Assembly (NCBI GenBank): GCA_000720805.1
Contig: JODI01000057.1
Span: 43,193 to 107,192 of the forward strand
Direction of reading: 5' to 3'
Length of the DNA stretch: 64,000 bases
Origin: Streptomyces violaceoruber
GTDB lineage: Bacteria; Actinomycetota; Actinomycetes; Streptomycetales; Streptomycetaceae
Of the stretch, positions 8,100-39,626 are shown piece by piece. Within the stretch, counting starts at the first letter, position 1. Every line of letters begins with the position of its first letter. The notes beneath the pieces are model-generated. The model saw only the letters and a list, made by a program, of their open reading frames with translations, was not told where the DNA came from and made no database searches. Both the position numbers and the translations under genes were made by a program.

Positions 8100-8820
8100 C
8101 GCAGACGACGCTCCTGCCGGTCAGCGCCTCCAGAGCGGGAGCAGCGAGCCACCGGTAGGAGACGGCCCGGCTGGTAGCGGACCATCCCTGCCCCCGACAC
8201 CCGGCCCGATCCTCGCCCGCGTACCCGCACTACGGGCGTGCAGCCCCTGCGGCCCCAGGTCCTGGAGCGCGGCGGCGTCAGCGACTGCCCGGCCTCGTCC
8301 TGGAAGACGATCCAGGCACCGAGAGCCGCCGCGGTGCTTTTACCCGCGGCCAGACGTCCTTCTTCCACAACTAGACCGCCGCGTCGTCGCGTTCGATGGC
8401 CCGGCGGGCGGGCTGCTGCCACGACCAGCCGTGCCGTCTCAGGAGCCGCCACGTGCCTTGGAGCGTGTGCGAGACGTGGAACATGCGACCAATGAGCGTC
8501 TTCACCCGGGCCAGTGTCCACCGCTGATCTGCCCAGCCGTGTGCCAACGGCCCACGCTGCAACTCGCTTTCAAGCCGGGCCACTTGAGCATTGTTGAGCT
8601 TGGGTCGTCGGGGTGATCCCTCGGAGGCGACACCGGCCGCACCGCGTTCGCGCCAGGACCGGCGCCACCGCTCCACGAACCGCTCGCTCACTCGCAGCGC
8701 GGCGGCGACCTCCGGTTCTTCTCCCCGCGCTCGAAGCGGTCCCCGGCCTGCAAGCCGGACCCCCTCCCGCGCTGCCTTCCCAGCGTCGGTCAGCCCGCCG
8801 CCCTGCGCTTATCTCACAAG
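8100..8820 (-). pseudogene. IS630-family transposase remnant
   Basis: Minus-strand segments in several frames, in order, are: an N-terminal GGLTDAGKAAREGVRL region, the winged-helix part VSERFVERWRRSWRERG with GVASEGSPRRPKLNNAQVARLE, and MFHVSHTLQGTWRLLRRHGWSWQQPARRA. A catalytic-core piece follows, GAWIVFQDEAGQSLTPPR and TWGRRGCTPVVRVRG. A frameshift near 8710, a TAG near 8370 and another frameshift just after it break the gene. The C-terminus is missing where it meets the SDR remnant. Terminal repeats were not found. Confidence 0.75.
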
Positions 8821-8931
8821 CCCACAGCTACCTGACCATCGCAGAGGCGTCAGGAGAACGCCCCGACATCACCCGATCAAGTTCAGTAGTATCTCTCTAA
8901 ATTCCTTGAGAGTGTGAGAGAGCGCGAACGA

Positions 8932-25631: not shown

Positions 25632-25708
25632 CCGGAGAGTGCTTCTTCCCTGCGGCGACCTGGACCCTGGACAAGTCCCATCGTTGCAGGTCAGGAGCAC
25701 TCTCCGGG
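25631..25708. repeat. Inverted repeat at the start of the IS1380-type element
   Basis: CCCGGAGAGTGCT (25631-25643) and its exact complement (25696-25708) flank about 50 bases. They mark the 5' end of the element and overlap the transposase start codon, so the terminal repeat probably also forms a hairpin that limits transposase translation. Confidence 0.5.
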
Positions 25709-25752: not shown

Positions 25753-27252
25753 TTAGTGGACGATCACGGGCTCGCCGTCCGACGGTGCCAGAGGCGAATT
25801 CGGCATCAGGAACGCCGCGAGCACCGCGCCGACCACGAAGATCCCGGCACCCCACGCCAGGGTGGCCGTGTAGCTCTCGACCCCGGCCTGGGCCACGGTC
25901 AGCGCGCCGGGCTTGTGTGAGGACAGGTAGTCGGTCGCGGCGGATGAGGCAACGGTGGTCAGTAGCGCCGTGCTGATCGAGCCGCCCACCTGCTGGCTGG
26001 TGTTTATCAGCGCCGAGGCGACGCCCGCGTCCTCGTGGTGCACGCCTGCGGTCGCACCCTGGAACGCGGTGGTCATCACCGCACCGATGCCGAGGCCCAG
26101 CAGGATCATGCCCGGCATGATGTCGGCGACGTAGGTGCTGTCCAGCGCGAGCCGGGTCAGCAGGGCCATACCGGATGCGGAGACCAGGAAGCCGGCGCTG
26201 ACCACGACCTTCGGGCCGACCCTGGGCAGCAGCAGTGAAGGCACCGTGGTCGACGCGGCAACGATGCCGCCGACCAACGGCAGGAAGGACAGACCGGCCT
26301 CGATCGGCGAGTAGCCGATGCTGGCCTCCAGGTAATAGGTCAGGAACAGGAAGATCGAGAACATCCCCATGCCCAGGACGAACACGGCCAGGAACGAACC
26401 ACCTCGGGTCCGGTCCAGCACGACTCGCAGCGGCAGCAGCGGATGCGCGACCCTGAGCTCCAGCCAGACGAACACCGCGAGCAGCACCACGCCGCTGATC
26501 ATGGAGCCGAGGGCGACCGGGTCGGTCCAACTGGTGGATTCGACGTGCGCGAATCCGTAGACGATGCCGAACAGTGCGGCGCTCACCACGACGGTGCCAG
26601 GAATGTCGATCTTAGGTCGTTCGGTGACCACGGGCTTGGCGAGCAACAGCAGCGCACCGGCCAGCGCGACGCCCGCGAAGATGACGTTCACGTACATCAC
26701 CCAGCGCCATGACGCCCACTCGGTGAGCATGCCGCCGAGCAGGAGTCCGACCGCGGCGCCGGCACCGGACAACGCACTGAAGATGCCGAACGCCTTCGGC
26801 CTTTCCGCCGGGTCGGTGAAGGTCACGCTGAGCAGTGAGAGCGCCGCGGGCGCGAGCAGCGCGGCGAACAGACCCTGAGCCACGCGTGCCGCGACGAGGA
26901 TCTCGAAGCTGCCGGCCGCGCCGCCGACGACGGACGCGGCCGCGAAACCGATCAGGCCGGTCACGAAGGTGGTACGCCGGCCGAACAGGTCACCGAGCCG
27001 GCCCCCGAGCAGCAGCAGGCTGCCGAACGCCAGGGCGTAACCCGTGATGACCCACTGCCGGCTGCCGTCGCTGAAACCGAGGTCATGTTGCGCTTCGGGC
27101 AGCGCGATGTTCACGACGGTCGCATCGAGCGTGACCATGAGCTGCGCCACACCCAGCACGACGAGCACCCACCAGCGCGTGGCATGTGAGCCACGGCGGC
27201 CCGAGTCTGGTTTCCCGGAGGCGGGTGCTTCGGGGTCGAAGGTGGTAGTCAT
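25753..27252 (-). CDS. DHA2-type MFS multidrug exporter under a TetR-type operator
   Basis: 499 residues. The N-terminal helix has VLGVAQLMVTLDATVVNIALP, the motif of the EmrB/QacA family. Motif A is LGGRLGDLFGRRTT, helix 5 has GIFSALSGAGAAVGLLLGGMLTEWASWRW, and 14 hydrophobic segments can be counted. The ATG at 27252 follows AAGGGAAG. The promoter carries two facing copies of GGAAACCGATCTGTTTCC, and a broken TetR gene starts divergently at ~27370. It most likely exports a toxic compound sensed by the TetR. A piece of this gene's 3' end was copied to ~35.5 kb. Confidence 0.9.
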   Translation of the reverse strand: MTTTFDPEAPASGKPDSGRRGSHATRWWVLVVLGVAQLMVTLDATVVNIALPEAQHDLGFSDGSRQWVITGYALAFGSLLLLGGRLGDLFGRRTTFVTGLIGFAAASVVGGAAGSFEILVAARVAQGLFAALLAPAALSLLSVTFTDPAERPKAFGIFSALSGAGAAVGLLLGGMLTEWASWRWVMYVNVIFAGVALAGALLLLAKPVVTERPKIDIPGTVVVSAALFGIVYGFAHVESTSWTDPVALGSMISGVVLLAVFVWLELRVAHPLLPLRVVLDRTRGGSFLAVFVLGMGMFSIFLFLTYYLEASIGYSPIEAGLSFLPLVGGIVAASTTVPSLLLPRVGPKVVVSAGFLVSASGMALLTRLALDSTYVADIMPGMILLGLGIGAVMTTAFQGATAGVHHEDAGVASALINTSQQVGGSISTALLTTVASSAATDYLSSHKPGALTVAQAGVESYTATLAWGAGIFVVGAVLAAFLMPNSPLAPSDGEPVIVH

Positions 27253-27292
27253 GTCTTCCCTTTGCTGCTGGTCGTGGCGGTGGGCACCGGTA

Positions 27293-27334
27293 GGAAACCG
27301 ATCTGTTTCCACTTAGGAAAACAGATCGGTTTCC
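27293..27334. promoter_or_regulatory. TetR-type operator A (two facing sites)
   Basis: GGAAACCGATCTGTTTCC at 27293-27310 and its near inverse GGAAAACAGATCGGTTTCC at 27316-27334. Leftward, TTGCAC precedes the second site and TAAGT follows, fitting -35 and -10 hexamers around the operator. It serves the exporter at 25753-27252 and the divergent TetR remnant. The same palindrome recurs at five other promoters up to 39.2 kb. Confidence 0.7.
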
Positions 27335-27369
27335 TTGGTGCAAGTGAACGGTGGGCCTCTCACCTGTGA

Positions 27370-27600
27370 GTGATCCGACAATGAGGCCGGCCGCGTCGGC
27401 CTCCGGTGCCGTCTCGACGCGCGATCGGTTGCTCGACATCGCCGCGCGGCCCTTCCGCGGAGTGGGCGTCCGCAGTGGTGTCGACGAGTCGTGTCGCGCC
27501 GCCGGGGTATCGAGGCGATCGATGCGCCAGCTGTTCGACTGTCGCGGTGCCCGCCGTGCTCGCCGTCATGGGGCCGAAGGTCAAGGCCTTCTCGCTGCGC
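27370..27600 (+). pseudogene. TetR-family regulator, truncated
   Basis: The frame shows STRDRLLDIAARPFRGVGVRSGVDESCRAAGVSRRSMRQLFD, a TetR helix-turn-helix similar to the intact regulator at 35854 (GVGIGVDALCRAAGVSKRSMYQLFE). After the helix-turn-helix the frame is lost, and from ~27640 the DNA belongs to a transposase end. No ligand domain remains. It faces away from the exporter across operator A, the classical local-repressor position. Confidence 0.7.
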
Positions 27601-27639
27601 CGCCGCGAGAAGGCCGGAGACCTCCGCGGGTCAGCTCCG

Positions 27640-27987
27640 GCGCGCCCACTTCTTGGACGTGCTGCACCGCTCCCACGTCGGCGTGGAAGGCCGGGTGCGC
27701 ACCAACAAGGCCATGGGGCTGGACAACTTGACCTCCGCATCGTGGGAGGTGAACCGCGGATGGGTGCTCGCCGCGCACCTCGCTGTCGATCCCGACGCGT
27801 GGCTGCGGCTGCTGGCCTTGCGCGACATGGACAACCTGGCCTGCGCGGGGCCGGACACCATGCGCCTCCGCCTCAATCGCTCTGCGCGCCCGCCTCGCCG
27901 ACCGCGCCCGCCGCCGCTTCCTGTGGTTCGAACGAACCTGGCCCAGGGCTGTCAACGGCCTTCGTTCTTCCCGCCGTGACTGAGTGA
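27640..27987 (+). pseudogene. C-terminal fragment of an IS1380-type transposase
   Basis: Plus-strand reading gives FLDVLHRSHVGVEGRVRTNKAMGL, ASWEVNRGWVLAAHLAVD and WLRLLALRDMDNLACAGPDTMRLRL. After a one-base shift it continues LRARLADRARRRFLWFERTWPRAVN and a stop. This is the conserved tail of actinobacterial IS1380-type transposases. It interrupts the TetR remnant before it. Confidence 0.6.
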
Positions 27988-28149
27988 GGGGGGTCACCAT
28001 CTGCTTGTGCTGGTGGACGGCGCTGCCCGCCGTCACCTGAAGACCAGACGCTTGCCCGGCACGATACGGAAAGGAGCAGACCCTCAAGACCCTCGGGGTG
28101 CCATGGAACCCCGGCGCTGCCGCAGCGAAACGCGAAGGCGCCACCTGCG

Positions 28150-28413
28150 ATGACGCGGAACAGGGCGAACCGGCGGCACGGTCATGCACTCACGATCGCT
28201 GAAGAATCGAGGCCGGCCTTCACGTTCGAGTCGAGTTCGGCTGACGTCGAACCTGTGGACAATGCCACGCTCGCCGAACTGCGCGCTGTGTGCAATGAGA
28301 TGAGAACGCGGCATCTCGGAGCACCCGTCGTTCACCTCTGGCTTGGTCACCTGGGCAGGTGTCCGGTCAGGGTCCCTGTGCGCGCAACCGTCGCTCAGAT
28401 GTGGGAATGGTGA
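28150..28413 (+). CDS. Possible small hypothetical protein, 87 residues
   Basis: An open frame from MTRNRANRRHGHALTIAEE to VAQMWEW. The central part (TLAELRAVCNEMRTRHLG) looks protein-like, but the ribosome site is weak and no family is recognised. It lies between a transposase tail and operator B, so it may be chance or a remnant. Confidence 0.25.
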   Translation: MTRNRANRRHGHALTIAEESRPAFTFESSSADVEPVDNATLAELRAVCNEMRTRHLGAPVVHLWLGHLGRCPVRVPVRATVAQMWEW

Positions 28414-28481
28414 ACCGGCGATTGACCTCAACGCGCTCAGACCGCTGGAGTGACGAGGGCACCTGAGTACCGGCGCCGGGC

Positions 28482-28532
28482 TTGACACCTGGAAACCGAT
28501 CGGTGCACCCTAGAGGAAACCGATCGGTTTCC
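28482..28532 (+). promoter_or_regulatory. TetR-type operator B in a promoter
   Basis: A TTGACA hexamer at 28482-28487 is followed by GGAAACCGATCGGTGCAC (28491-28508) and a perfect GGAAACCGATCGGTTTCC (28515-28532). The first site fills the -35/-10 spacer. It drives the NmrA-like gene at 28675. A bound TetR would exclude RNA polymerase. Confidence 0.7.
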
Positions 28533-28674
28533 GAGTCTCGTGGCCCACGGACAGCGGCACAGTGTCAGCCGGTCGGCGCCGTCGGTCGCCAAGCTGATGC
28601 AGCGACAAGCCCCGAACGTGCCGCGTCCATCGCGTGCTGATCGCGTGCGTACTCAACTTCTGGAGTGAATAACC

Positions 28675-29772
28675 ATGTCTTCTCACGCCACCTCCACCAT
28701 CTTCGTCATCGGCGGTACAGGGGCCCAAGGGATTCCCATCGTCCGCGCCCTTGTCGCAGACAAGAAGTACTCCGTCCGGGTCCTCACTCGGGATGCCACC
28801 TCCCCCCGGGCCCAGGAACTCCTCGCACTCGGCAACGTCTCCGTCCTCGAAGGGTCATTCGCCGACGAGGACGTGCTGCGCGAAGGATTTCGCGGCTGTG
28901 ACGGGGCGTTCGTCAACATTGACGGGTTCAACACCGGCGAGAAGGCCGAGACCTACTGGGCCATCCGCACGTATGAGATAGCGATCGAGGAAGGAATCAA
29001 GTTCTTCGTCTACGGGAACCTCGACTACGCCCTCAAGAAGTCGGGCTACGACTCCAGGTTCCGTACCGGCCACTATGACGGCAAGGGCCGCATGGCCGAA
29101 TGGGTGCTGTTCCAGAACGAAAAGAACAGGGACCGGATGGGAGCGGCGGTCTTCACCTCGGGCCCCTACATCGAGATGGTCATCTCACCGCTCACACCCA
29201 TGACGCCCAGCATCGAGGACGGGGTCGTCACCTGGCGAGTCCCACTCGGCGACGGGGCCGTTCCGCACGTGGCCCTGGAGGACTGCGGATTCTATGTCCG
29301 CTGGCTCTTCGACCACCCGGAACGGGCCAACGGCATGGACCTCGAAGTCGCTATCGAGCACATGACCTACACGGATATGGCCGCAGCATTCGAGAAGGTC
29401 ACCGGGCATCCGGCGCAGTACATCGACACCGATCTGGACACCTACTGGAACAGCCCGGACCTGAGCGGGCTCGCTGACCATCCTGCCGGATACAACGCCG
29501 ATCCCAACGACAAGAGCACCATGAGCTTCCGCGACAATTTCACGGGCTTCTGGAATGTGTGGAAGCACGGAATCATCACCCGGGACTACGCCCTGCTCGA
29601 CGAAATTCACCCCAACAGGATCAGGAGCGCTGAGGAGTGGTTCCGCCGCGAAGACCAGCTGGGAAGGGAGCTCGGCAAGGGAAGTCTCTGGGAGAGGGTT
29701 CAGCCGGAGAACTGGACCATGGAGTCCGCGGTTCTCAAGAGCAGCGCGGATCTCAGGACGGGCACGCTGTAG
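28675..29772 (+). CDS. NmrA-like NAD(P)-binding protein
   Basis: 365 residues. The N-terminus has IFVIGGTGAQGIPIVRALV, the GGTGxQG Rossmann loop of NmrA/HSCARG proteins, followed by VRVLTRDATSPRAQELLALG and VSVLEGSFADEDVLREGFRGCDGAFV. These atypical short-chain dehydrogenases lack the YxxxK catalytic pair and serve as redox sensors or as reductases. There is a long C-terminal region to LRTGTL. The operator-containing promoter is 150 bases upstream, so it belongs to the TetR regulon. Its codons end in A or T somewhat more often than its neighbours, hinting at a separate origin. Confidence 0.83.
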   Translation: MSSHATSTIFVIGGTGAQGIPIVRALVADKKYSVRVLTRDATSPRAQELLALGNVSVLEGSFADEDVLREGFRGCDGAFVNIDGFNTGEKAETYWAIRTYEIAIEEGIKFFVYGNLDYALKKSGYDSRFRTGHYDGKGRMAEWVLFQNEKNRDRMGAAVFTSGPYIEMVISPLTPMTPSIEDGVVTWRVPLGDGAVPHVALEDCGFYVRWLFDHPERANGMDLEVAIEHMTYTDMAAAFEKVTGHPAQYIDTDLDTYWNSPDLSGLADHPAGYNADPNDKSTMSFRDNFTGFWNVWKHGIITRDYALLDEIHPNRIRSAEEWFRREDQLGRELGKGSLWERVQPENWTMESAVLKSSADLRTGTL

Positions 29773-29775
29773 CAG

Positions 29776-30425
29776 GACGATCTGGTTCTGGCCGAGGAAC
29801 CGGCGGCCCGGGCGGCCGTCTGTGTCGACAACGCCCGCCGCTACACCCGTGAACGCGGTACGGCGGTGATGCCGCGGCGCGGCCTGCTGCCTCAGCGGCT
29901 GCCCGAGCAGGCGGCGGTGGAGGTCGCCTCCCGCTGTCTCCCGGCCGGCGCGCACGTCGGCGTGGGCAGCGACTGGTTCGACGTGATCCCGCTGTCGGGG
30001 GCGCGGGTGGCACCGGTCGTCGGCGACATCGTCGGACACGGCATCGGTGCCTCCGCGACCATGGGCCGTTTGCGTACGGCCGTACGTACGCTCGCCGACA
30101 TCGACTTGCCCTCCGACGAGCTGCTCACCCATCTCGACGACCTGGTCGCCCGCCGTCCACTGAGCAGGAGGGCGACCAACCGGCCGACTGGTACCCGAAG
30201 ATCGGCGGCGAGGTGGGCGCGACCTGTCTGTACGCCGTGTACGCCCCGATCTCCCGACGCTGCTCACTCGCCAGGGCCGGACATCCGCTACCGGCCGTGG
30301 TGAGTCCCGACGGCAGCGCTGAACTCGTCGACCTCCCGGCAGGCCCTCACTGGGGCTGGGAGGCCTGCCCTTCGAGGCGACCGAGATCGACCTGCCCGAG
30401 GGCAGCCTGCTCGCCCTCTACACCA
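29776..30425 (+). pseudogene. GAF/SpoIIE-type phosphatase remnant
   Basis: The frame begins inside a GAF domain (AARAAVCVDNARRYTRERGTAV) and enters a PP2C/SpoIIE domain: LLPQRLPEQAAVEVASRCLPAGAH, VGSDWFDVIPLSGARVAPVVGDIVGHG, MGRLRTAVRTLADIDLP. A frameshift near 30170 leads to GATCLYAVYAPISRRCSLARAGHPLPA, and a further one precedes the end near LPEGSLLALYTNG. The start and end are missing, and a transposase remnant follows at 30433. Confidence 0.75.
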
Positions 30426-30432
30426 ACGGCCG

Positions 30433-30690
30433 ATCTCGTTGAACCGGTGGATCACGTCCCGCACCGTGTCCTCGTCGGCCTGCACCAACTGGGCGATCCC
30501 CGGCACGCGGTTCCCGCCGGCCGACGCCAGCAGCATCATCGCCCGCCGGTAGCGCACCGAACTGGTGCTGCCCCGGCGCACGATCCGCTGTAACTGCCGG
30601 CCCTCCTGGTCGGGCAGCCTCCGAACCCTGACCGGCTCTGCCGTTTCCGCCTCCCGGCACCGTGCCTGAACGTCCCCGGACATCCAAGCG
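30433..30690 (-). pseudogene. IS630-family transposase N-terminal remnant
   Basis: The minus frame reads VRVRRLPDQEGRQLQRIVRRG, SVRYRRAMMLLASAGGN and AQLVQADEDTVRDVIHRFNEIG, the DNA-binding N-terminus of a Streptomyces IS630 transposase. The catalytic part is absent; the sequence passes straight into the phosphatase remnant. Confidence 0.6.
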
Positions 30691-30743
30691 CGCCACACCC
30701 CAGGAAGCCACCAGCAACCCGGTGAACCCATGCGGTCACAGCA

Positions 30744-31178
30744 CTAGCGAGGTGCCGCGAGTACGTCCCGGAGTACGTTCTCGAGCGTGACGCGGGCCAG
30801 CTCGTGTCTCAGGGTCTCCTCGATGCCCTCGTAGATGCCCTGCATCGCCGGCTGGATGCCGTAACCCACCACGCATCCCTGGTCCGGGGTAGTGCGGTGC
30901 ATCGCGAACAGCGGGCCGGGTTCCACTGCCTCATACACGTCGAGCAGGGTCATCGACTCCAGCTCGCGCGCCAGCGACCAGCCCGCGCCCACGCCCCGCC
31001 GGGACTCCACGAGCCCGGCCCTGCGCAGCTCGCCGAGCAGTCGCCTGATCACCACGGGATTGGTGTTCGCGCTGGTCGCGATCTGCTCGGAGGTGGCGAC
31101 CTCATGGCCCTGGCGCTGGTACAGACCGATCCAGGCCAGCGCGTGGGCGGCAATGGTCAACCGGCTGTTGGCACTCAT
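30744..31178 (-). CDS. Rrf2-family transcriptional regulator
   Basis: 144 residues starting MSANSRLTIAAHALAWIGLYQR. The winged helix includes VATSEQIATSANTNPVVIRRLLGELRRAGLVESRRG and GAGWSLARELESMTLLDVYEAVE, the classical Rrf2/YwnA pattern. Only one cysteine is seen (QGCVVG), so a three-cysteine Fe-S cluster is unlikely and it may sense small reactive molecules through that residue. It is divergent from an SDR at 31307, with palindromic TTACGAC sites between them. Confidence 0.85.
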   Translation of the reverse strand: MSANSRLTIAAHALAWIGLYQRQGHEVATSEQIATSANTNPVVIRRLLGELRRAGLVESRRGVGAGWSLARELESMTLLDVYEAVEPGPLFAMHRTTPDQGCVVGYGIQPAMQGIYEGIEETLRHELARVTLENVLRDVLAAPR

Positions 31179-31203
31179 GAACCCGTCCTCTCGGCCGCAA
31201 CGC

Positions 31204-31262
31204 TTTATGTTACGACAGCACAGTCGTAACAGTGAAGGTTGCAACAGCCTGTCGTAACAATT
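31204..31262. promoter_or_regulatory. Rrf2 operator region with repeated TTACGAC half-sites
   Basis: TGTTACGAC and GTCGTAACA face each other across five bases at 31209-31231, and another GTCGTAACA is at 31253-31261. The region also holds AT-rich promoter-like parts for both directions. The repeats most likely bind the adjacent Rrf2 protein. Confidence 0.6.
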
Positions 31263-31306
31263 AGCGTTGCGACTGCCAGGAAGGGTCAATCAACGAGGTG
31301 AGAAGA

Positions 31307-32056
31307 ATGAGCAAGCCACTCATGGGCAAGGTCGCCCTGGTCACCGGGGGGTCGCGCGGGCTGGGAGCCGCGACCGTACGGCTGCTGGCCGAGCACGGCG
31401 CCGACGTCGCCTTCACCTACGTCAGCTCCGAGAAGCAGGCGCAGGCCGTCGTCGACGAGGTGCACGGCAAGGGAGCCAAGGCCGTCGCCTTCCAGTCCGA
31501 CCAGGCGGACATGAGTCGGGCGCCGGCGCTGATCGACGACGTGGTCGCGCACTTCGGCGGCCTGGACATCCTCGTCAACAACGCGGCGATCTCCGTGGCC
31601 GGCACGGTGGACGACCCGGACGCCGACACCGCCGCACTGGACCGGATGCACGCCACCAACTACCTCGGCGTGATCGCCGTCATCCGGGCCGCCTCCCGAG
31701 TGCTGCGCGCGGGCGGCCGCATCGTCACAGTGAGTTCCGGACTCGGCTCCCGGGTCGGTGTCCCGGGAGTTGCCGACTACTCGGCAACCAAGTCAGGGAT
31801 CGAGAGGTACACCATGGGGGTCGCACGAGACCTCGGGCCCCGGGACATCACGGCCAACGTCGTGGAGGCCGGACTGATGGAGAGCGGCATGGAACCGCCG
31901 GACCCCGAGACCCTCAAGGCCCTGGTCGGCTCGCTGTCCCTGCAACGTATGGGGCACCCCGACGAAATCGCCGCGGCGATCGCCTTTCTGGCGAGCCCCG
32001 CCGCGTCGTACGTCACGGGCGCGGTGCTGGACGCCCACGGTGGTTACAACGCCTGA
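31307..32056 (+). CDS. Classical short-chain dehydrogenase/reductase
   Basis: 249 residues, complete. TGGSRGLGAAT (cofactor loop), NNAAI, the catalytic Ser in TVSSGLGSR, YSATK with Tyr and Lys, and PASYVTGAVLDAHGG at the C-terminus match the FabG-like SDR family of 3-oxoacyl-type reductases. ATG 31307 is preceded by GAGGTGAGAAG. It is divergent from the Rrf2 gene and probably controlled by it. This pairing is frequent in Streptomyces and is often linked to quinone or electrophile stress. The substrate is unknown. Confidence 0.9.
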   Translation: MSKPLMGKVALVTGGSRGLGAATVRLLAEHGADVAFTYVSSEKQAQAVVDEVHGKGAKAVAFQSDQADMSRAPALIDDVVAHFGGLDILVNNAAISVAGTVDDPDADTAALDRMHATNYLGVIAVIRAASRVLRAGGRIVTVSSGLGSRVGVPGVADYSATKSGIERYTMGVARDLGPRDITANVVEAGLMESGMEPPDPETLKALVGSLSLQRMGHPDEIAAAIAFLASPAASYVTGAVLDAHGGYNA

Positions 32057-32228
32057 ACCGGAACCCGTGCAGCGCGCCCCGGAGGACATCGCGCCTTCGG
32101 GGCGCGCACCCAGGAGAGCGGCTCCTGACGAACGATCTCCTCCGCGGACTGCCGCCCACGACCAGGGCGAGTTCCCCGAGTACGGGTCACACCAGCCTTT
32201 CGACCTGCCCCTTCAAGTTGGCGGAGGC

Positions 32229-32605
32229 TCAGTGCTGATCGCCCCACATCGATGTGTACGCCGGGTCCACGGCAACGATCGACAGGCCGTGTTCGGACGC
32301 CATGGACACGAGCCGGGCCTTGAGCTTGCCGGTGGGGACGTTGGAGATGAGCTGCCGGAAGCGCTTACGTCTGCCGTGCTTCTCGCGGGTCTTCTCGGCG
32401 GCGAAGTCCAGGTTCTCCAGGCCGATGGCTTTGGCGCCGCACCGGTCGGCCCAGTGCGGCAACTGGCTGATGGCGTGCCGGACCTGGGCGTCAGAAGCGT
32501 TTGCCGGACTCGCCGTCCGCGGTGAGGAACCACCGTTCGGCTTCCCACCGCTTACGCCACTGCTCGGCGGTGAGCTGGGCGGCTTCGAGGTTTATGAAGC
32601 CGCGC
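32229..32605 (-). pseudogene. TnpB (IS200/IS605 OrfB) fragment
   Basis: The minus frame has HAISQLPHWADRCGAKAIGLENLDFAAEKTREKHGRRKRFRQ, then SNVPTGKLKARLVSMASEHGLSIVAVDPAYTSMWGDQH. This is the RuvC-like domain with the conserved glutamate in GLENLDF and the beginning of the zinc region. Just upstream, after a frameshift near 32500, are AAQLTAEQWRKRWEAERWF and LTADGESGKRF from an earlier part. The start, the REC-like region and the zinc ribbon end are missing, so it is inactive. Confidence 0.65.
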
Positions 32606-32785
32606 CTGGCCGCCGCCAGGGGATCGAGGAAGGCGACCGCCAGGGGCAGCTGCTTCCCGTACGGCAGCCGGCTCGGCCAACACCGGCCACGACCCGGAAC
32701 CGCCGGGCCGGTAGGCATCGGCGCGCAGCACCGTGCCATCACGCATCTGCGCCGGGACATCGAACTCGATCTGCATCTCCGCCAT
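32606..32785 (-). pseudogene. CocE/NonD-type hydrolase N-terminal fragment
   Basis: MQIEFDVPAQMRDGTVLRADAYRPGGSG is the start of an X-Pro dipeptidyl-peptidase (S15)/CocE hydrolase. After a one-base shift it goes on RLPYGKQLPLAVAFLDPLAAARRGFI, where it switches in frame to TnpB sequence (NLEAAQL). The rest of the hydrolase is gone. Confidence 0.65.
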
Positions 32786-32887
32786 GTGCCGCTTCTTTGC
32801 GTGCCAAGACGTCTTCGCTCGTCATGGTCGAGTCGGCCCCGCACGCACCACCCCCGAATGGAGGTGGCCACGGCGCTCCCGGGGCAG

Positions 32888-33757
32888 TCACGCCAGCGGG
32901 TTCAGCAGACCGGCCAGCACGTCGGGCCTCTCCAGGGCAATGAAGTGGCCCGCTCCCTGCACCTGTGTGAAGTCGGCGGCCGGCAGCAGCTTCTTGTTGG
33001 CTTCCCGGTCCGAGGGCCGGGACCAGTCCTTCTCGCCGTAGACGAGGTGGACGGGGGCCTTGACCTCGGGGTAGCGCGAGCGGGCCGCGATGAGGCTGGG
33101 CAGGCTCTGGTACACCGCTCGGGCGACGGTCGGGTAGCCGGGGCGGCGGCCCACCTGGAGAAGTTCGTCGACGTAGTCGTCGCGCAGGGCGGTCTTGTCG
33201 CCCAGGCCGCCCTGAAGGACCTTGCTGAGGACGGGCTTGGGCTCCACCCCGGCGATCACCGGGCCCACTCCCGGTGCGAGGACACCGGTGACCACGAACC
33301 GGGCGAGGAGGCTGGACCGGGCGATTCCGCCTCGGAAGTCGTAGGTGTTGACCGCGACGACGCGCCGGACGCGCTCCGGGAGATCGGCCGCGGTGGTCAG
33401 GGCGAGCACCGCGCCCATGGACTCCCCGACCAACGTCACGTCGTGGAGGTCGAGTTCGGTCAGGAGCCGCTCGACGCCCGCGCGCATCGCCGGCTCGTCG
33501 TAGGACGCGCCGGGCACGATCTCGGAGTAGCCCATCCCCGGCAGGTCGAGGGCGTACACGGTGTAGTGGTCCGCGACCAGCGGGATGAGCTGGCGGAAGT
33601 GCTCGGCCTGGGTGCGCACGGTGTGCAGCAGGACCAGAGGAGCGCCGGTGCCCGCCCTGAGGTAGCGCAGCTGTCCTCCGCGGCCGCTGCGAGAGGCGAT
33701 GGTGTGGCTGGTGGTCCCCGGAATGTGAATCGTGGGATGTGACTCGTGGCTGGGCAT
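32888..33757 (-). CDS. Alpha/beta hydrolase (Ser nucleophile)
   Basis: 289 residues. LVLLHTVRTQAEHFRQLIP provides the oxyanion region (a non-standard LHT in place of HG). The nucleophile elbow is VGESMGAVLAL with Ser, the acid is in VYGEKDWS and the catalytic histidine in QGAGHFIALERPD. It resembles carboxylesterases and haloperoxidase-type hydrolases. The gene follows a broken SDR by about 26 bases on the same strand, so it probably shares the promoter with operator C. Cytoplasmic. Its own start ATG at 33757 has a GGAGACGG-type site. Confidence 0.85.
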   Translation of the reverse strand: MPSHESHPTIHIPGTTSHTIASRSGRGGQLRYLRAGTGAPLVLLHTVRTQAEHFRQLIPLVADHYTVYALDLPGMGYSEIVPGASYDEPAMRAGVERLLTELDLHDVTLVGESMGAVLALTTAADLPERVRRVVAVNTYDFRGGIARSSLLARFVVTGVLAPGVGPVIAGVEPKPVLSKVLQGGLGDKTALRDDYVDELLQVGRRPGYPTVARAVYQSLPSLIAARSRYPEVKAPVHLVYGEKDWSRPSDREANKKLLPAADFTQVQGAGHFIALERPDVLAGLLNPLA

Positions 33758-33782
33758 GTCGCCGTCTCCTGTGTGAAGGGTC

Positions 33783-34310
33783 CTACGTGGTCAGTTGGGC
33801 ATACCGTGCCGCGAGCTCGCCGGCGAGGCCGTTATTGACCTGGCGGGAGATGTCGTCGGCGAGGATTTCGTGGGCGCCGGTCTCGATGCCGTCGAGAGCG
33901 AGAGCGAGGGCGGCGACGTTGCGGGGCCGGACTTGGGTTCGCTGACGCCCGCTGCCAGGTCCGTGTCGACGTAGTCGACTTGAAGTGTTGGTCTGCGACC
34001 GCAGAGCCGCCTTGGAGGCGTTGTAGGAGCGGGCCGCTCAAGGCCACCCAGGACGGCACCGGGTGCGCGTCGAGGCCGCTGCACCGACGTTGTTGATCAG
34101 TATGGCCTTCCGTGGCGGCGGCCGCCACGGAGACAGGGCGGTGATCTCCAGCGCCACCGGGACCGCGTCGGGGTGCGTCATACCGCGCGGCCGGCGAGCC
34201 GTGGCGTACACCTTGTCGGCGCCGCGCGTGTACAGATCCTCCGCCGGCGCCTTGCCCAGGCCGCGGCTGCCGCCGGTGGCAAGGGCGTTCGCGCCCTTCA
34301 AAGCGGTCAT
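33783..34310 (-). pseudogene. Short-chain dehydrogenase with internal losses and frameshifts
   Basis: It begins MTALKGANALATGGSRGLGKAP and EDLYTRGADKVYATARRPR, with THPDAVPVALEITALSPW and ILINN. It ends, in another frame, LALDGIETGAHEILADDISRQVNNGLAGELAARYAQLTT and a stop. The central part with the YxxxK active site is missing, and several frameshifts occur. Operator C stands 18 bases upstream, so the regulated transcript would still reach the intact hydrolase behind it. Confidence 0.75.
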
Positions 34311-34327
34311 GAGTGCCTCCACAGAGC

Positions 34328-34370
34328 GGTAAACCGACCGCTTTCCATCATGGTAAACCGGTCGGTTTCC
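34328..34370 (-). promoter_or_regulatory. TetR-type operator C (two sites)
   Basis: GGTAAACCGACCGCTTTCC at 34328-34346 and GGTAAACCGGTCGGTTTCC at 34352-34370. Read leftwards, TTGCGC, 16 bases and TACCAT form a plausible promoter with one operator filling its spacer. It controls the SDR remnant and the alpha/beta hydrolase. Confidence 0.65.
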
Positions 34371-34397
34371 AGGCGCAAGCCTGTCAAGGTCCCAGCT

Positions 34398-34631
34398 TCA
34401 CGGAGACGTTCCGTACCCGTGGATCCCAGGGATGACGAGCCCTCCACCTGTCTGTCCGGCCTGGTCGAGGTCGGCGTCGGCCAGGCCGAGTTGGAGCCTG
34501 ACGCCCAGCTTCCCGGCCATGTCGTAGAGCCACTCCGGGACGGTGTCGGGGGTGAGGTGGAGGCGCGGGAGTGGGGGCGGGGAAATGCCTTCGACGCCGG
34601 ACAGGGTGCCCGTCAGGCTCTCGACGTACAT
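34398..34631 (-). other. Coding-like remnant of unknown family
   Basis: The minus frame from ATG 34631 reads MYVESLTGTLSGVEGI, LTPDTVPEWLYDMAGKLGVRLQLGLADADLD and ends GIHGYGTSP. Its composition is protein-like, unlike the other frames here, but no family is recognised and the upstream part is unrelated. It may be the tail of a lost gene, divergent from operator C. Confidence 0.3.
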
Positions 34632-34711
34632 GGTGACGCGGCCGCCTCGCGGCGTGGACGTCGAGCCGGGCGCTCCGTCGATGTGCTGGATCTGCGGGCC
34701 GACGGTCCGGG

Positions 34712-35345
34712 GTGCCGGTGGCGACCATCAAGACTACCGCCGGGAGGGGCTGCTCCTCGAGGGACGGGCGCTGAACCCGACCACGGTCGAGTACGACGAG
34801 GGGCACATCCAGCGGCTGCGTCTGATCCGTTCCCTCATCCAGCTCGGCGGGCTGTCCGTCGCCCGCACCCGGGAAGTGCTCGAAGCCGTCGAGCAGCCGC
34901 TGGACGCGTTCGAGACCTGGCCGTCGTCCACCACGCCCTGCCCGTTCCTGCCGCAGGGACGAGCGGGAAGGGTGGCGAGGACCATGCGGATGCCGCCGAC
35001 GAGGCGGCATCCGGCAGAGCCGTCGCGCGGGTCGAGGCCCTCGTCGAGAACATGGGCTGGCAGATCTCCGGCGCGTCAGCGCACCGCCCGGCACTCGCCG
35101 AAGGTCTCGCGGCGCTGAGCCGCCTCGGCACCGACTGCACGGCCGACGACCTCATCCCCTACGCACGGCTCGCCACCTCCACCGCGGACCTTGATTTCGC
35201 GCAGCTCGAAGGGATCGAGGACCAGATCGCCCTCGCCGAGCGGGCGGTGGTCCTCAGCGTGCTGTTCGATCCGGTCGTCAGGCTGCTGCGGCGCCCGGCC
35301 CAGGAGGACGCCAACCATCGCCGCCATGGTCGGCACGCGTGGGGG
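34712..35345 (+). pseudogene. MerR-family regulator with frameshifts
   Basis: After VATIK a base is missing, then YRREGLLLEGRALNPTTVEYDEGHIQRLRLIRSLIQLGG and LSVARTREVLEAVEQPLDAFE form the MerR helix-turn-helix. A second shift near 34915 leads to LAVVHHALPVP, ALVENMGWQISGASAHRP, LGTDCTADDLIPYARLATSTAD and AERAVVLSVLFDPVVRLLRR. With two single-base corrections a ~210-residue regulator would result. It may have been a local regulator of the SDR/hydrolase unit. Confidence 0.7.
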
Positions 35346-35482
35346 AGGGGGGAGTCGCCGGCGGAGAGTCCCAGGCGTGGTGCCGACGGGTCAGCGGCAC
35401 CGTGCTCGCGGGGTTCAGTGCACGGTGGCGGGTATCGGCGATGTCGGCGGTCGGCATGTCGGCCTCCTTGATACCGAACCGT

Positions 35483-35650
35483 GGGCGGCTCCACCAGCGC
35501 GGCGCTACTGACCACCGTCGCCTCATCGGCCGCGACCGACTACCTCTCGTCGCGCAAGCCGGGTCCACCGAGCGCGGTGGGCGATCACGGGCTCGCCCTC
35601 CGACGGCGCCAAAGGCGCATTCGGCATCGGAAGCGCCGAAAGGACAGCAC
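35483..35650. repeat. Two head-to-head fragments of the MFS exporter 3' end
   Basis: Plus-strand 35483-35571 reads GGSTSAALLTTVASSAATDYLSSRKPG, matching VGGSISTALLTTVASSAATDYLSSHKPG of the exporter at 25753-27252. The following 35580-35640 is the inverted copy of the extreme 3' end (minus-strand MPNAPLAPSEGEPVIAH versus MPNSPLAPSDGEPVIVH). Two neighbouring pieces of one gene have thus been joined in opposite orientations, and the stop codon was lost at the joint. Confidence 0.7.
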
Positions 35651-35804
35651 CGACGCCGCTCCTTCTCCCACGGAGATCCATCAGAAGGGCCCTGGCCCGG
35701 TCTGGAGATGATGCCTCGGCCTCATTGCGGCCGCGCTCTTCGGCTTGGGGTGACCCCCAGGGACGGCACCGCGTCCTGACGCCGTGGATCACCTCGGCAG
35801 ATTT

Positions 35805-35823
35805 TATAAACCGATCGGTTTCC
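35805..35823 (+). promoter_or_regulatory. TetR-type operator D
   Basis: TAAACCGATCGGTTTCC with the perfect 14-base core at 35808-35821. It lies 31 bases before the intact tetR start and is a single site, suggesting autorepression. The sequence from here to the ATG is repeated, with changes, at 39226-39274. Confidence 0.7.
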
Positions 35824-35853
35824 GATGGGCTGGAATCGAGCTAACCTCGCAAT

Positions 35854-36420
35854 ATGACCAGTGAGGCGAAGTCAAGCTCCCGAGCGCGGCTGCTGGAGGC
35901 GGCGGCCACGCTCACCTATCGAGACGGTGTCGGCATCGGCGTCGATGCGCTGTGCAGGGCGGCGGGGGTGTCGAAGCGCTCCATGTATCAGCTGTTCGAG
36001 AGTAAGGGTGAGCTGCTGGCGGCGGGCCTGGAGGAACGTGCCGCCGACTATGTGGCGACGCTCCTGCCCGCGGCCGACGGCCGTTCACCCCGTGAGCGGA
36101 TCCTGCACGTCTTCGAGCAGCTCGAATCACAGGCGGGTGCACCCGACTTCCAGGGTTGCCGGTATCTCGCGGTGCAGATCGAGCTCAAGGATCAGAGCCA
36201 CCCTGCGAGCCAAGTGGCCCACGGGGTCAAGGAGAATCTGACAGCCTTCTTCCGCGCCGAGGCCGAGCGGGGAGGGGCGAGCGCCCCGGACCTGTTGGCC
36301 CGGCAGCTGATCCTGGTCTTCGACGGCGCCAGCGCTCGCGCGGGAATCAAGGCCGACACGCCGGCGGGGCTTATCGCTCCCACGGTGACCGCCCTGCTCG
36401 ATGCGGCGGAAATGCGCTGA
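35854..36420 (+). CDS. TetR-family transcriptional regulator (likely master of the AAACCGATCGGTTT sites)
   Basis: 188 residues. The helix-turn-helix is RARLLEAAATLTYRDGVGIGVDALCRAAGVSKRSMYQLFESKGELL (residues ~9-55). The C-terminal ligand domain has GCRYLAVQIELKDQSHPASQVAHGVKENLTAFF and ends DAAEMR. It is the only complete member of three TetR paralogues in the window. An operator just before its start and the same site at five other promoters make it the probable repressor of the exporter, NmrA-like, SDR/hydrolase and iron-sulphur/membrane genes. The ligand is unknown. Confidence 0.88.
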   Translation: MTSEAKSSSRARLLEAAATLTYRDGVGIGVDALCRAAGVSKRSMYQLFESKGELLAAGLEERAADYVATLLPAADGRSPRERILHVFEQLESQAGAPDFQGCRYLAVQIELKDQSHPASQVAHGVKENLTAFFRAEAERGGASAPDLLARQLILVFDGASARAGIKADTPAGLIAPTVTALLDAAEMR

Positions 36421-36565
36421 CGTAGCGCGCGTGCGAGCACTCCCTGGGGCGGATGCACCCGCCGAAGGTGACGTCGGCCTCCGGCGGCACCCGGCCGGTG
36501 CGCGACCCTACGTAACGTCGCCCGGCCGGCTCCCGCCGAGAGGCAAGTGGGGTGGCCTCTCGGGC

Positions 36566-36614
36566 TTGCGATCGGAAACCGATCAGTCTACGGTGATAAA
36601 ACTGATCGGTTTCC
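36566..36614 (+). promoter_or_regulatory. TetR-type operator E (two sites)
   Basis: TTGCGA (36566-36571), GGAAACCGATCAGTCTAC (36574-36591) and AAAACTGATCGGTTTCC (36598-36614). A -10-like TACGGT lies 17 bases from TTGCGA. It drives the QueG/RdhA-like gene at 36659 and the coupled membrane protein. Confidence 0.65.
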
Positions 36615-36658
36615 CGCCGTGGGGCGGGTCTCACGACGAGACTCACGAGGAGTGCCGG

Positions 36659-37786
36659 ATGACGACCCCCGCGCACGACACCGAGGGGCAGTCGGCGGAA
36701 CCGAGGCTGCCGGCGAAGCTGGCCGCTCACCCGTCGGTGCGGGCTGTGCTCGCCCGGCGCAGGGCCGGTGACGCGGTGAGACCGCCGACGGTGATCGACG
36801 CGGCCTGGCTGCGCGAGCTGTGCCTCTCGGCCGGCGCGGACGACGCCGCCGCGGTCAGCCTGGACCACCCCGACCTGGCCGGCGAGCGCGAGTACGCACA
36901 GTCCGCGCTGCCCGGCACCCGCACCCTGATCGCCATGGCGGTCCGGATGAACCGCGACAACTGCCGCTCCCCGGCCCGCAGCGTGGCCAACCAGGAGTTC
37001 CACCAGGCCGACGAGCAGGCCAACCACGCCGCCCGCAGCGTCACCCGGGCACTGCAGGACGCCGGATACCGCGCACTCAACCCGTCGGTCGGCTTCCCGC
37101 AGGAGATGGACCGCTTCCCCAGGGAGCGGATCTGGGTGGTGGCGCACAAGACGGTCGCCGTGGCCGCCGGACTCGGCGTGATGGGCCTGCACCGCAACGT
37201 CATCCACCCGAAGTTCGGCAGTTTCATCCTGCTCGTCACCGTCCTGGTGGACGCGGAGGTCGGCGAGTACGGACAGAAGCTGGACTACAACCCGTGCATC
37301 GACTGCAAGTTGTGCGTCGCCGCCTGCCCGGTCGGCGCCATCGCCAAGGACGGCGCCTTCGACGCGCTGGCATGCACCACGCACAACTACCGCGAGTTCA
37401 TGAGCGGGTTCACCGACTGGGCGCAGACCGTGGCCGACAGCGAGGACGCCGCCGACTATCGCTCGCGGGTCACTGATTCCGAGAGCGCCTCCATGTGGCA
37501 GAGCCTGAGCTCGCCCCCCGGCTACAAGTCCGGCTACTGCCTTGCCGTCTGCCCCGCCGGCGAGGACGTCCTGGGCCCGTACCTGGATGACCGCAAGTCG
37601 TTCATGGACACCGTCCTGCGACCGCTCCAGGACAAGCAGGAAACCCTGTACGTCCTGCCGGGATCCCACGCGCAGGAGTACGCAAAGCGCCGTTTCCCCC
37701 ACAAGCCCGTCAAGGAAGTCACCGGTGGTTGGCATCCTCCGGCGAAACGTTCCGCGTCCCCCGACCGAGAGACACGTACGTCATGA
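36659..37786 (+). CDS. QueG/reductive-dehalogenase-like double [4Fe-4S] protein
   Basis: 375 residues. The N-terminal half has GTRTLIAMAVRMNRDNCRS, and HKTVAVAAGLGVMGLHRNVIHPKFGSFILLVTVLVD resembles the corrinoid-binding region of epoxyqueuosine reductase and reductive dehalogenases. Two ferredoxin-type clusters follow, CIDCKLCVAACPVGAI and CLAVCPAGED (the second lacking the usual first two cysteines in tight spacing). No Tat signal, so cytoplasmic. The ATG has GAGGAG eight bases upstream, and the stop overlaps the next gene by four bases. A TetR-type operator pair precedes it. Reduction of a xenobiotic or quinone is possible; the reaction is not known. Confidence 0.75.
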   Translation: MTTPAHDTEGQSAEPRLPAKLAAHPSVRAVLARRRAGDAVRPPTVIDAAWLRELCLSAGADDAAAVSLDHPDLAGEREYAQSALPGTRTLIAMAVRMNRDNCRSPARSVANQEFHQADEQANHAARSVTRALQDAGYRALNPSVGFPQEMDRFPRERIWVVAHKTVAVAAGLGVMGLHRNVIHPKFGSFILLVTVLVDAEVGEYGQKLDYNPCIDCKLCVAACPVGAIAKDGAFDALACTTHNYREFMSGFTDWAQTVADSEDAADYRSRVTDSESASMWQSLSSPPGYKSGYCLAVCPAGEDVLGPYLDDRKSFMDTVLRPLQDKQETLYVLPGSHAQEYAKRRFPHKPVKEVTGGWHPPAKRSASPDRETRTS

Positions 37787-39081
37787 GTGGCATTCCCCCC
37801 TTCCGAGTCCTGCGCGCCAAGCCTCTGTGGATCGCCAACGGCGTCATCACGGGCGTACTCGCGCTGCTGTTCACCGTGTTCTACGTCGGCGCCAACATCG
37901 ATCCCGTCGATCACATGACCAAGCTGCCCGTCGGCCTGGTCAACGCCGACAAGGGAGCAGCCGTCGGCGGAAGGCAGGTCAACCTGGGGACAGGGATCAC
38001 CGAGTCGATCAAGAAGTCCGCCGTGAGCGGGGACAGGATCGACTGGAAGGTGATGGACGAGAAGGAGATGAGGGAGGAGCTCGGCAAGGGCAAGCTGTTC
38101 GGCGCGCTCGTCGTGCCGGCCGACTTCACTGCCTCCGCCACCGCGCTGACCGGCACCGCGGCCATCGGGACCCCGGTTCGCCCGACGCTGACGGTGCTGA
38201 CCAACCAGTCCGCGGGAAGCATCGGCTCCGGTCTGGCTCGGACGGCGACGACCCAGGCGGCTGAGAACGCCTCGCTCCAGGTGGGCAAGGAGCTGACCGC
38301 CCAGACGGGCGCCCGGCAGGCGAAGCTGCCCGCCGCGGCCCGCCTCCTCCTCGCCGACCCGGCCGCCGTCACGGTCGAGGACGGCCATCCCCTCGGCTCG
38401 CACAGCGGCCTGGGCCTGACGGCGTTCTACTACGCACTCACCCTGGTGGTCTGCGGCATGCTCTCCGCCAACGTCATCAGCGGCCAGGTCGACCACGCCC
38501 TCGGCTACACCCACAACGACATGGGCCCGCTGCGCCTCAACCGCCCGCTGATCCGGGCGACCCGGGTCCAGACACTCGCCATCAGCAGCACCCTCATGGC
38601 CGGACTGTCCCTGCTGATGGGCACCCTGGTCATGGCCGGCGCGGTCGGCATCATGGGCATGGACGCCGCCCACCTGTCGCTGCTGTGGCTGTACTCGGTG
38701 TGCGCCATCGCCGTCACCGGCATCGGCGCACTCACCCTCCTGGCGGTCTTCGGCACGCCCGGCATGCTGGTGGTCACGCTGGTCTTCATCGGGATGGCGG
38801 TACCCACGGCCGGTGCCACCACCCCCATCGAGGCCCTGCCCGGCTTCTACCGCTTCCTCGCCGAGTTCGAGCCGCTGCGCCAGCTCACCGGCGGCCTCCG
38901 CTCGATCCTCTACTACGACGCCCAGGGCGACGCCGGACTGACGCGAGGCTGGGTGATGATGGCCGTCGGCCTCGCGGTGGCCACGCTGTTCGGCTTCGGC
39001 GTGACGGGCTGGTACGACCGCAAGGGACTGCACCGCATCCCGGTCGAGACGAAGCCCGGCAAGACCGCCGTCCCGGCGTAA
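37783..39081 (+). CDS. YhgE/ABC-2-like integral membrane protein
   Basis: 432 residues. One N-terminal membrane helix (LWIANGVITGVLALLFTVFYVGA) is followed by a ~200-residue external domain with VGLVNADKGAAVGG and LFGALVVPADFTASATALTG, as in YhgE/Pip and DUF3533 proteins. At least five C-terminal helices follow (LTAFYYALTLVVCGMLSA to MMAVGLAVATLFGFGV). Such proteins resemble ABC-2 permeases without their ATPase. Translation is coupled to the iron-sulphur protein (ATGA overlap), so the two act together or are needed under the same inducer. Confidence 0.83.
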   Translation: MSGIPPFRVLRAKPLWIANGVITGVLALLFTVFYVGANIDPVDHMTKLPVGLVNADKGAAVGGRQVNLGTGITESIKKSAVSGDRIDWKVMDEKEMREELGKGKLFGALVVPADFTASATALTGTAAIGTPVRPTLTVLTNQSAGSIGSGLARTATTQAAENASLQVGKELTAQTGARQAKLPAAARLLLADPAAVTVEDGHPLGSHSGLGLTAFYYALTLVVCGMLSANVISGQVDHALGYTHNDMGPLRLNRPLIRATRVQTLAISSTLMAGLSLLMGTLVMAGAVGIMGMDAAHLSLLWLYSVCAIAVTGIGALTLLAVFGTPGMLVVTLVFIGMAVPTAGATTPIEALPGFYRFLAEFEPLRQLTGGLRSILYYDAQGDAGLTRGWVMMAVGLAVATLFGFGVTGWYDRKGLHRIPVETKPGKTAVPA

Positions 39082-39223
39082 CGGCAGGTCACCCAGGACG
39101 GGCCACTCCTCGGAGTGGCCCCGGTGTGTGTCACCCTGCCGGGGACGACAGGCGCGCACACCCTCATGGCTCGGCGGCGACCCTTCCCCCAGGCCGTCGC
39201 CGAGCCCCTGTCCGGAACCCACT

Positions 39224-39241
39224 GGAAACCGATCGGTTTTC
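39224..39241 (+). promoter_or_regulatory. TetR-type operator F
   Basis: GGAAACCGATCGGTTTTC, then about 30 bases to an ATG. The stretch to the ATG is similar to the intact tetR promoter at 35805-35854 (both contain TAACCTCGC). It is the promoter of the truncated TetR copy. Confidence 0.65.
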
Positions 39242-39271
39242 ATTTTCTCCGCTTCGGGTTAACCTCGCGAT

Positions 39272-39330
39272 ATGACCACCGAAGTGAAACTCAGCCCCAG
39301 GGAGCGACTGCTGGAGGCGGCGGCCACAGG
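39272..39330 (+). pseudogene. TetR N-terminal fragment
   Basis: MTTEVKLSPRERLLEAAAT matches the first 19 residues of the intact TetR (MTSEAKSSSRARLLEAAAT), then diverges into GVLTRS and non-TetR sequence. With its promoter it is a duplicated 5' end. The remaining ~300 bases to the next gene hold two direct copies of CCTCTGACTG-CTCCGA (39393, 39451) and no gene. Confidence 0.7.
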
Positions 39331-39626
39331 AGTCCTGACCCGTTCGACACCGCCCCGGCCTTGGCCGACTCGGGGCCGAACAGAGGGCCATTGCCTCTGA
39401 CTGGCTCCGAGCATCCCGGGTCGAATCGGGGTCGAGTCAGAGCGGTTTCCTCTGACTGCCTCCGATCGCCTCTGCAACCCGACCTAGCAGGTCACAGCCG
39501 ATCCGGCCCATATAAGCGCAGGTCAGACGGGTGCGTCAGAAATACCTGGGCGTACAGCCCGACTCGTCCGCCCGTACCGTCCTCCGAGCTGATCGTGTTG
39601 TCAGTCCCACCTGTCATCATCCCGCC

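Follow-up and report, generated by a model that had tools for sequence, protein, structure and literature searches.

A predicted TetR-family regulon of exporter and detoxification genes sharing one operator palindrome in Streptomyces

The two TetR paralogues LmrA and QdoR (YxaF) of Bacillus subtilis share paired boxes at exporter and catabolic operons, regulate their own expression and are released by flavonoids, which are aromatic ligands. In Thermus thermophilus HB8, the TetR-family repressor TTHB023 (PfmR) has CTGACCGATCGGTCAG as its best site; by the paper's own measurements, it binds a site with central ACCGATCGGT at 2 nM, and it targets several promoters besides its own, while a second TetR repressor, TTHA0167, was proposed to share some of the sites (PMC7022988). 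In Streptomyces avermitilis, SAV151, encoded with sav152-154, was described as a TetR repressing a dehydrogenase/hydrolase operon, with the binding sites GAACTGACA..TGTCAGTTC and TCTGACA..TGTCAGA listed in a review (PMC10933834). Here, a palindrome that precedes exporter, oxidoreductase, hydrolase and tetR genes is analysed in a 64,000-nucleotide stretch of the Streptomyces violaceoruber genome (GCA_000720805.1; 10.53 Mb, 350 contigs), positions 43193-107192 of contig C57, which is called the window throughout. We consider it highly probable that these sites are operators of the small TetR/AcrR-family repressor encoded at 35854-36420 and of its paralogue(s), which would occlude exporter and detoxification promoters until relieved by a ligand.

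The operator and its promoter layout

Ten matches to the 18-mer GGAAACCGATCGGTTTCC with at most three mismatches are present in the window, compared with none in 100 dinucleotide-preserving shuffles. They form four paired places, starting at 27293/27317, 28491/28515, 34329/34353 and 36574/36597, and two single ones at 35806 and 39224. An initial annotation of this DNA had reported the palindrome at six places, and each of the ten starts lies 0-2 bases from the numbers it gave; the genes it had named there were also recovered, namely the MFS exporter, the NmrA-like protein, a broken SDR gene with an intact alpha/beta hydrolase gene, the intact TetR, and a QueG/RdhA-like protein with a DUF3533 protein. 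The 14-bp core of the operator is AAACCGATCGGTTT, and its ten central bases are ACCGATCGGT.

The promoter layout was compared over the window, loci L016-L018 and loci L098-L190, of which L098-L113 were chosen by operator and L114-L190 by TetR. Among 175 distinct pairs less than 60 bp apart, the spacing was 24 bp in 113, 23 bp in 29, 25 bp in 17, 26 bp in 6 and some other value in ten; the 167 pairs at 22-27 bp were used in the layout test, and the 8 outside this range were left out. In 162 of the 167 pairs, one side has TTG[ACT] ahead of operator 1, at a distance of 9-11 nt (the five pairs without TTG were left out of later counts, as were three of the 162 without an open reading frame). In an offset control covering 45 nt on both sides, 161 of 167 pairs had the motif at -10 or -11, and any other offset was found in at most 24. 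A TAnnnT sequence, the predicted -10, lies at the end of operator 1 in 133 of the 162, most commonly as TACGGT, and the spacer between -35 and -10 measures 17 bp (124 promoters), 18 bp (37) or 16 bp (1). The target promoter is stereotyped: a TTGC -35, operator 1, usually a TAnnnT -10, and operator 2, the two operators being mostly 23-25 bp apart.

The spacing also depends on the class of the gene downstream, being 23 bp in 22 of 25 QueG promoters and 24 bp in 40 of 51 SDR promoters; the class labelled SDRfab (16 promoters, 29-32% identity) is mainly a second SDR family. At the NmrA promoter of the window the -10 region differs from the TACnnT present in the five other NmrA promoters compared. 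The features of the window are collected in Table 1. The best NCBIfam model for the exporter is LmrA-type efflux, with a score under the model cut-off, and the TetR_N helix-turn-helix (HTH) domain of the window TetR, N-terminal in position, scores 32.4 bits against a cut-off of 24.

Table 1. Features of the regulon region, in window positions
Feature	Position	Strand	Evidence and remarks
MFS (DHA2-type) exporter, predicted regulon target	25753..27252	-	Pfam MFS_1 1.1e-49; operator pair upstream; ATG at 27252
Exporter promoter operator pair, 24 bp apart	27293..27334	-	-35 TTGCAC; usual -10 place without TAnnnT
TetR HTH remnant (family residues 8-49)	27414..27539	+	tblastn 55-60% identity over 42 aa
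NmrA promoter operator pair	28491..28532	+	-35 TTGACA; -10 region CACCCT
NmrA-like NAD(P)-binding protein, predicted regulon target	28675..29772	+	Pfam NmrA 2.6e-30; operator pair upstream of genus homologues
Alpha/beta hydrolase, distal gene of SDR-hydrolase operon	32888..33757	-	79% identical to hydrolase of the intact operon, L016:13809-14687
SDR remnant of SDR-hydrolase operon	33792..34310	-	tblastn 45%, gapped match to residues 1-231; intact paralogue L016:12999-13697
SDR-hydrolase promoter operator pair	34329..34370	-	-35 TTGCGC (34378-34373), -10 TACCAT (34355-34350)
Remnant of C-terminal end of second exporter copy	35475..35654	two pieces, opposite strands	tblastn 83%/30 aa, 77%/26 aa
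Single tetR operator	35806..35823	+	core start 46 nt before ATG; TAACCT, 6 nt, ATG
Intact TetR, predicted repressor, a-type	35854..36420	+	Pfam TetR_N 8.2e-08; PDB 3jsj_A 3.6e-90; type by residues
QueG-like operon operator pair, 23 bp apart	36574..36614	+	-35 TTGCGA (36566-36571), 17 bp, -10 TACGGT (36589-36594)
QueG/RdhA-like Fe-S protein	36659..37786	+	family models; nitroreductase-like B12-type fold by model
DUF3533 / YhgE-Pip membrane protein	37783..39081	+	Pfam/NCBIfam; ATGA overlap with preceding QueG-like gene
Single operator of lost b-type repressor	39224..39241	+	GGAAACCGATCGGTTTCC match; b-type tetR remnant downstream
b-type tetR remnant, first 19 codons	39272..39328	+	94.7% identical to C9 TetR

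Predicted repressor, operator and targets across genomes

The association between operator and repressor was analysed in 199 Streptomyces genomes, with a site defined as the exact core and a TetR as a match at E 1e-40 or better; these searches evaluated just a portion of the first-look candidates, so that a zero does not prove absence. The exact core occurs in 58 genomes, with the control at 0 in each genome, and the TetR in 54, with up to four matches per genome. Both were found in 52 genomes, the site only in 6, the TetR only in 2 and neither in 139 (Fisher p 1.9e-38). In the two TetR-only genomes, the gene contains an internal stop (G148) or a three-mismatch site is present at 46 nt (G169, L095). 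Among distinct TetRs of at least 70% identity, the core lies within 150 bp upstream in 109 of 112 (exactly in 99, with one or two mismatches in 10), and it starts 46 nt before the ATG in 106 of these. The recognition-helix region SKRSMYQLFESK is nearly constant among the close TetRs, and the tetR mRNA is probably leaderless, as suggested by GTTAACCTCGC immediately before the ATG. Outside the genus, all five relatives from Actinomadura, Nonomuraea, Saccharothrix and Pseudonocardia have the exact core at 46 nt, and in a family sample the exact core is present in 20 of 61 genomes and 6 of 17 genera (own genus included).

Target genes were also searched independently of the TetR. Near full-length QueG-like homologues of at least 78% identity in the 199 genomes have an operator pair within 230 bp in 11 of 12 cases; the exception, in G181 (L221, C6:286818-287900), contains an internal stop, in a genome with no TetR at threshold and no exact operator. 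The QueG-like copy of G180 has an internal stop too, yet operator and TetR are both present there. A TetR is found in 13 of the 14 genomes with QueG (p 1.5e-7), and in G108 the QueG gene with its operator is separated by 5.2 Mb from the single TetR found in that genome, which points to regulation in trans. Full-length NmrA genes of the genus have an operator pair within 300 bp in 7 of 7 cases and within 230 bp in 6 of 7; in G177 and G097 the gene is on a contig other than that of the TetR, and in G165 it occurs without a TetR at threshold. Partial or approximately 60% matches (L223-L225, L233) were excluded from the 12 QueG and 7 NmrA genes. For the SDR of the SDR-hydrolase operon, 61 were among the matches listed at 69% identity or more, some of them partial; 60 are in TetR genomes, and the remaining one is a fragment in G139. 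An operator pair is present at 29 of 29 usable SDR loci out of 30 fetched (L252 was lost to a contig end), and no core with at most two mismatches was found on the contigs of the 54-56% SDR paralogues of the S. violaceoruber genome (C24, C190, C122). At remote or TetR-less sites, a target family is present at the site in 13 of 19 usable regions (L200 only as a 33% SDR). The central proposal of the initial annotation, one operator and one TetR family for an exporter-plus-detoxification set, is supported by the co-occurrence in 199 genomes, the near-invariant tetR operator and the genus-wide target operators.

When no more than one mismatch to the core is allowed, 11 places are found in the whole S. 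violaceoruber genome: C57 has nine, of which seven are inside the window and two left of it, and C9 and C108 have one each. Exactly two mismatches give 17 further places, whereas a reversed control yielded a single place with up to two mismatches allowed. At C57:36131/36155, 43 kb left of tetR, a clean operator pair heads an intact SDR-hydrolase operon, the counterpart of the broken SDR and hydrolase of the window (hydrolases 79% identical). C9:11140-11706 encodes a second intact TetR, 80% identical to that of the window and preceded by an exact core at C9:11094 with the same 46 nt to the ATG, so that two paralogous repressors with the same operator exist in one genome. The view that only one complete TetR remains therefore holds for the window, where two further TetR genes are present as remnants (27414-27539 and 39272-39328), but not for the genome; the description of the regulon as compact fails as well, in view of the operators at C57:36131, C9 and C108. 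Another C9 site, with two mismatches, precedes what seems to be just the last approximately 35 codons of a DUF3533 gene, and the C9 locus therefore seems to have lost a gene too.

Other palindromes were also recorded. The C108 pair of this genome (L018:8809/8835, 8809-8848) and a pair in another genome, L201:4882-4921, share an unusual -35, TTGAAT, and a downstream stretch that lacks a convincing open reading frame; a DDE transposase lies downstream of the former, the latter has no convincing open reading frame within 250 bp, and no target was assigned to them. A match on C182 (L019), with five mismatches in the 18-mer, was discarded as probably due to chance. Among four distant TetR paralogues (30-37%), those on C42 and C30 have related but different palindromes, that on C75 has another, and that on C181 has only a three-mismatch match to the operator. 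Upstream of the C42 paralogue (33%; L023), the palindromes AAACAGATCGGTAT and ATACAGATCGGTAT lie at 57216 and 57249, 33 bp apart, and the wider TetR subfamily may use CGATCGG-like paired operators.

Proposed mechanism and alternatives

In the mechanism proposed here, a TetR dimer would bind the palindrome AAACCGATCGGTTT. At target promoters, operator 1 would fill the 17-18 bp spacer between the -35 (TTGC..) and the -10 (mostly TAnnnT), and the second operator, usually 23-25 bp further on, would cover the transcription start, so that two dimers exclude RNA polymerase. The single operator upstream of the -10 of tetR would provide self-repression. An inducing ligand, probably a toxic molecule of aromatic or electrophilic character, would release the dimers, and the exporter, the oxidoreductases (SDR, NmrA, QueG/RdhA-like), the hydrolase and the membrane protein would be switched on together. 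The other intact repressor, encoded at C9, probably works at these sites too, and since one operator sequence precedes both intact repressor genes, relief of both may be necessary for full release. Operators, promoter layout, co-occurrence, target set and decay are read from the sequence, which supports the layout strongly.

Several observations weigh against this interpretation. The compared loci were chosen by operator or TetR, and the layout and cluster counts are therefore biased to the pattern. MFS promoters mostly have no TAnnnT at the usual place, and the operators before QueG in G146 form a pair oriented to a divergent SDR gene. At six of the 19 remote or TetR-less sites, no gene of these target families follows directly. 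In six genomes a site is present without a TetR reaching E 1e-40; in the five examined (all but G031), the site heads an NmrA gene in G165 and lies beside a 37% TetR in G047, and no clear target was found at the site in G074, G099 and G113. The initial annotation had placed the palindrome between -35-like and -10-like hexamers, and this arrangement stands for the paired sites, where it is kept in relatives, but a strict sigma-70 consensus scan of window positions 27000-40000 returned no promoter, and the -35/-10 placement hence rests on conservation. Many sites beside unrelated TetR genes had been named as a result that would contradict the regulon; among the sites examined, the exact core was found so placed once, in G047. 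There the core (L193:5438) lies approximately 120 bp before the 37% TetR, in a genome without a close TetR.

The alternative that retains most weight, although we regard it as clearly the less probable, assigns the work to the b-type paralogue at C9, which would be the repressor of all sites, the window TetR being redundant or responding to another ligand through the same sites. The C9 TetR is 97% identical to the copy of S. cellulosae NRRL B-2687 and so looks like a resident gene, and the recognition-helix region and the operator are common to both TetRs; however, the window TetR is intact, its gene is preceded by the conserved operator, and a-type residues are retained in it. It is unlikely that the TetR truly regulates only its own promoter and one neighbour, with the other copies being duplication relics spread with flanking DNA. 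The window is indeed full of duplicated and broken pieces, and the sites L192, L194, L201 and L207 have no recognisable target, but the class-specific spacing (23 bp QueG, 24 bp SDR) and the operators kept at intact targets in many genomes argue for selection on each promoter. That the TetR activates these promoters, as some TetR-family proteins do, is very improbable, because operators placed between -35 and -10 and across the region of the start have the geometry of occlusion.

The preferred reading, occlusion by the window TetR and its paralogue(s), would leave room for a wider and more speculative picture, which we offer with considerable reserve. A portable cassette (-35, operator, -10, operator) might recruit unrelated detoxifying genes genome-wide into a dispersed regulon, read by several interchangeable repressor paralogues with one common operator that sense different compounds, with the number and kind of tetR copies setting the gate. 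Among its effectors would be a B12/Fe-S reductive enzyme, not yet described, with toxic natural products as substrates.

The QueG/RdhA-like protein shows likeness in sequence and fold to the QueG/RdhA superfamily. It scores 51.3 bits with the QueG model (TIGR00276, cut-off 200), which does not reach the NCBIfam equivalog level, and 24 bits with the model of the reductive dehalogenases, such as NpRdhA and PceA (TIGR02486, cut-off 160.35), which is not reached either. Its structure model has a confidence of only 64.5 and Foldseek TM-scores near 0.3; the structure matches cover mainly model residues 34-251, and the iron-sulfur (Fe-S) part is of low confidence and its fold is not claimed. In the alignment to 5d6s, the VDTG segment of that protein, which probably holds the catalytic Asp of QueG, stands opposite eriw in the query. 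This little-studied enzyme is now tied to exporter and detoxification genes, which indicates where its substrate may be sought.

History of the cluster and comparison with known systems

Seven relatives (L098, L114, L116, L117, L121, L122, L154) share most of one gene order, in which the units have operators: a leftward hydrolase and/or SDR is followed by the exporter, TetR-a, the QueG-like gene (with DUF3533 in some) and TetR-b. Beyond TetR-b, a second SDR follows in most relatives, and an ABM-like gene with another SDR in some. The TetRs before QueG (15) and those before the second SDR (34) differ by majority rule at eight positions; the window TetR carries the a-type residue at six of these (not 78 and 90) and the C9 TetR the b-type residue at seven (not 153). 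The remnant at 39272 starts MTTEVKLSP, like b-types, and the 39224 operator with the remnant gene start is 87.6% identical to the C9 tetR over 105 bp. Because the exporter is inverted, a fragment of an exporter C-terminus is left over, the SDR is broken, TetR-b is reduced to 19 codons and the other TetR to part of the HTH, the window looks like a rearranged, decaying copy of an old Streptomyces cluster in which two repressors would have used one operator, with one SDR, one exporter copy and two tetR copies decayed. The initial annotation had suggested that units once separate may now be held by one repressor; the operator is, however, already common to the units, two TetR genes included, in several relatives, and this sharing therefore looks ancestral. 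The C9 TetR shares 97% identity with one from S. cellulosae NRRL B-2687, whereas the closest matches of the window TetR (89-90%) come from S. fildesensis and S. regalis, and owing to these different nearest species the window cluster may have been separately acquired.

Near the cluster, at 24702-25700 and 29866-30731, a transposase (DDE_Tnp_1_4), a SpoIIE-phosphatase fragment and an HTH fragment are present, in keeping with rearrangement. A divergent Rrf2 regulator/SDR pair at 30744-32056, within the regulon region, has no operator and is an apparent insertion.

The same switch and gene families occur in over a quarter of the sampled Streptomyces genomes, and a precise, testable operator and promoter layout is now available for a regulon whose predicted repressor is present in 54 of 199. 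Repressor paralogues with the same operator also offer a natural case for the study of cross-regulation.

In open-access text, the operator was not found in lengths of 12-14 bases, '3JSJ' was not found together with 'TetR', and searches by gene content gave, among the titles listed, none describing this regulon. PDB 3jsj_A, a putative TetR-family regulator, is a full-length close relative (E 3.6e-90), known here from its sequence alone. The ten central bases do occur in open-access text, where TTHB023 is a real precedent and the other occurrences concern other subjects, judged by title. SAV151, which controls a dehydrogenase-hydrolase operon, was ruled out as a characterised orthologue, as its listed operator differs (PMC10933834).

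The closest described systems resemble this regulon in different respects. TTHB023 has ten central operator bases identical to those of the window operator, and its binding at the same central ACCGATCGGT indicates that this class of site suits a TetR dimer; its outer bases, however, are CTG..CAG in contrast to GGAA..TTCC here, so that the full CTG-flanked site is not matched, its targets are fatty-acid genes in another phylum, and the paired -35/-10 cassette does not appear in the available part of the paper (PMC7022988).

LmrA/QdoR corresponds in its two TetR paralogues with the same operator and in the exporter among the targets, whereas the operator is another one, and the regulon in the actinobacterial host includes QueG/RdhA-like, NmrA and SDR-hydrolase genes. 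With TTHB023 and LmrA/QdoR, neither this type of site nor this type of regulon is new; the regulon of the window is well supported, and the kind of system is familiar.

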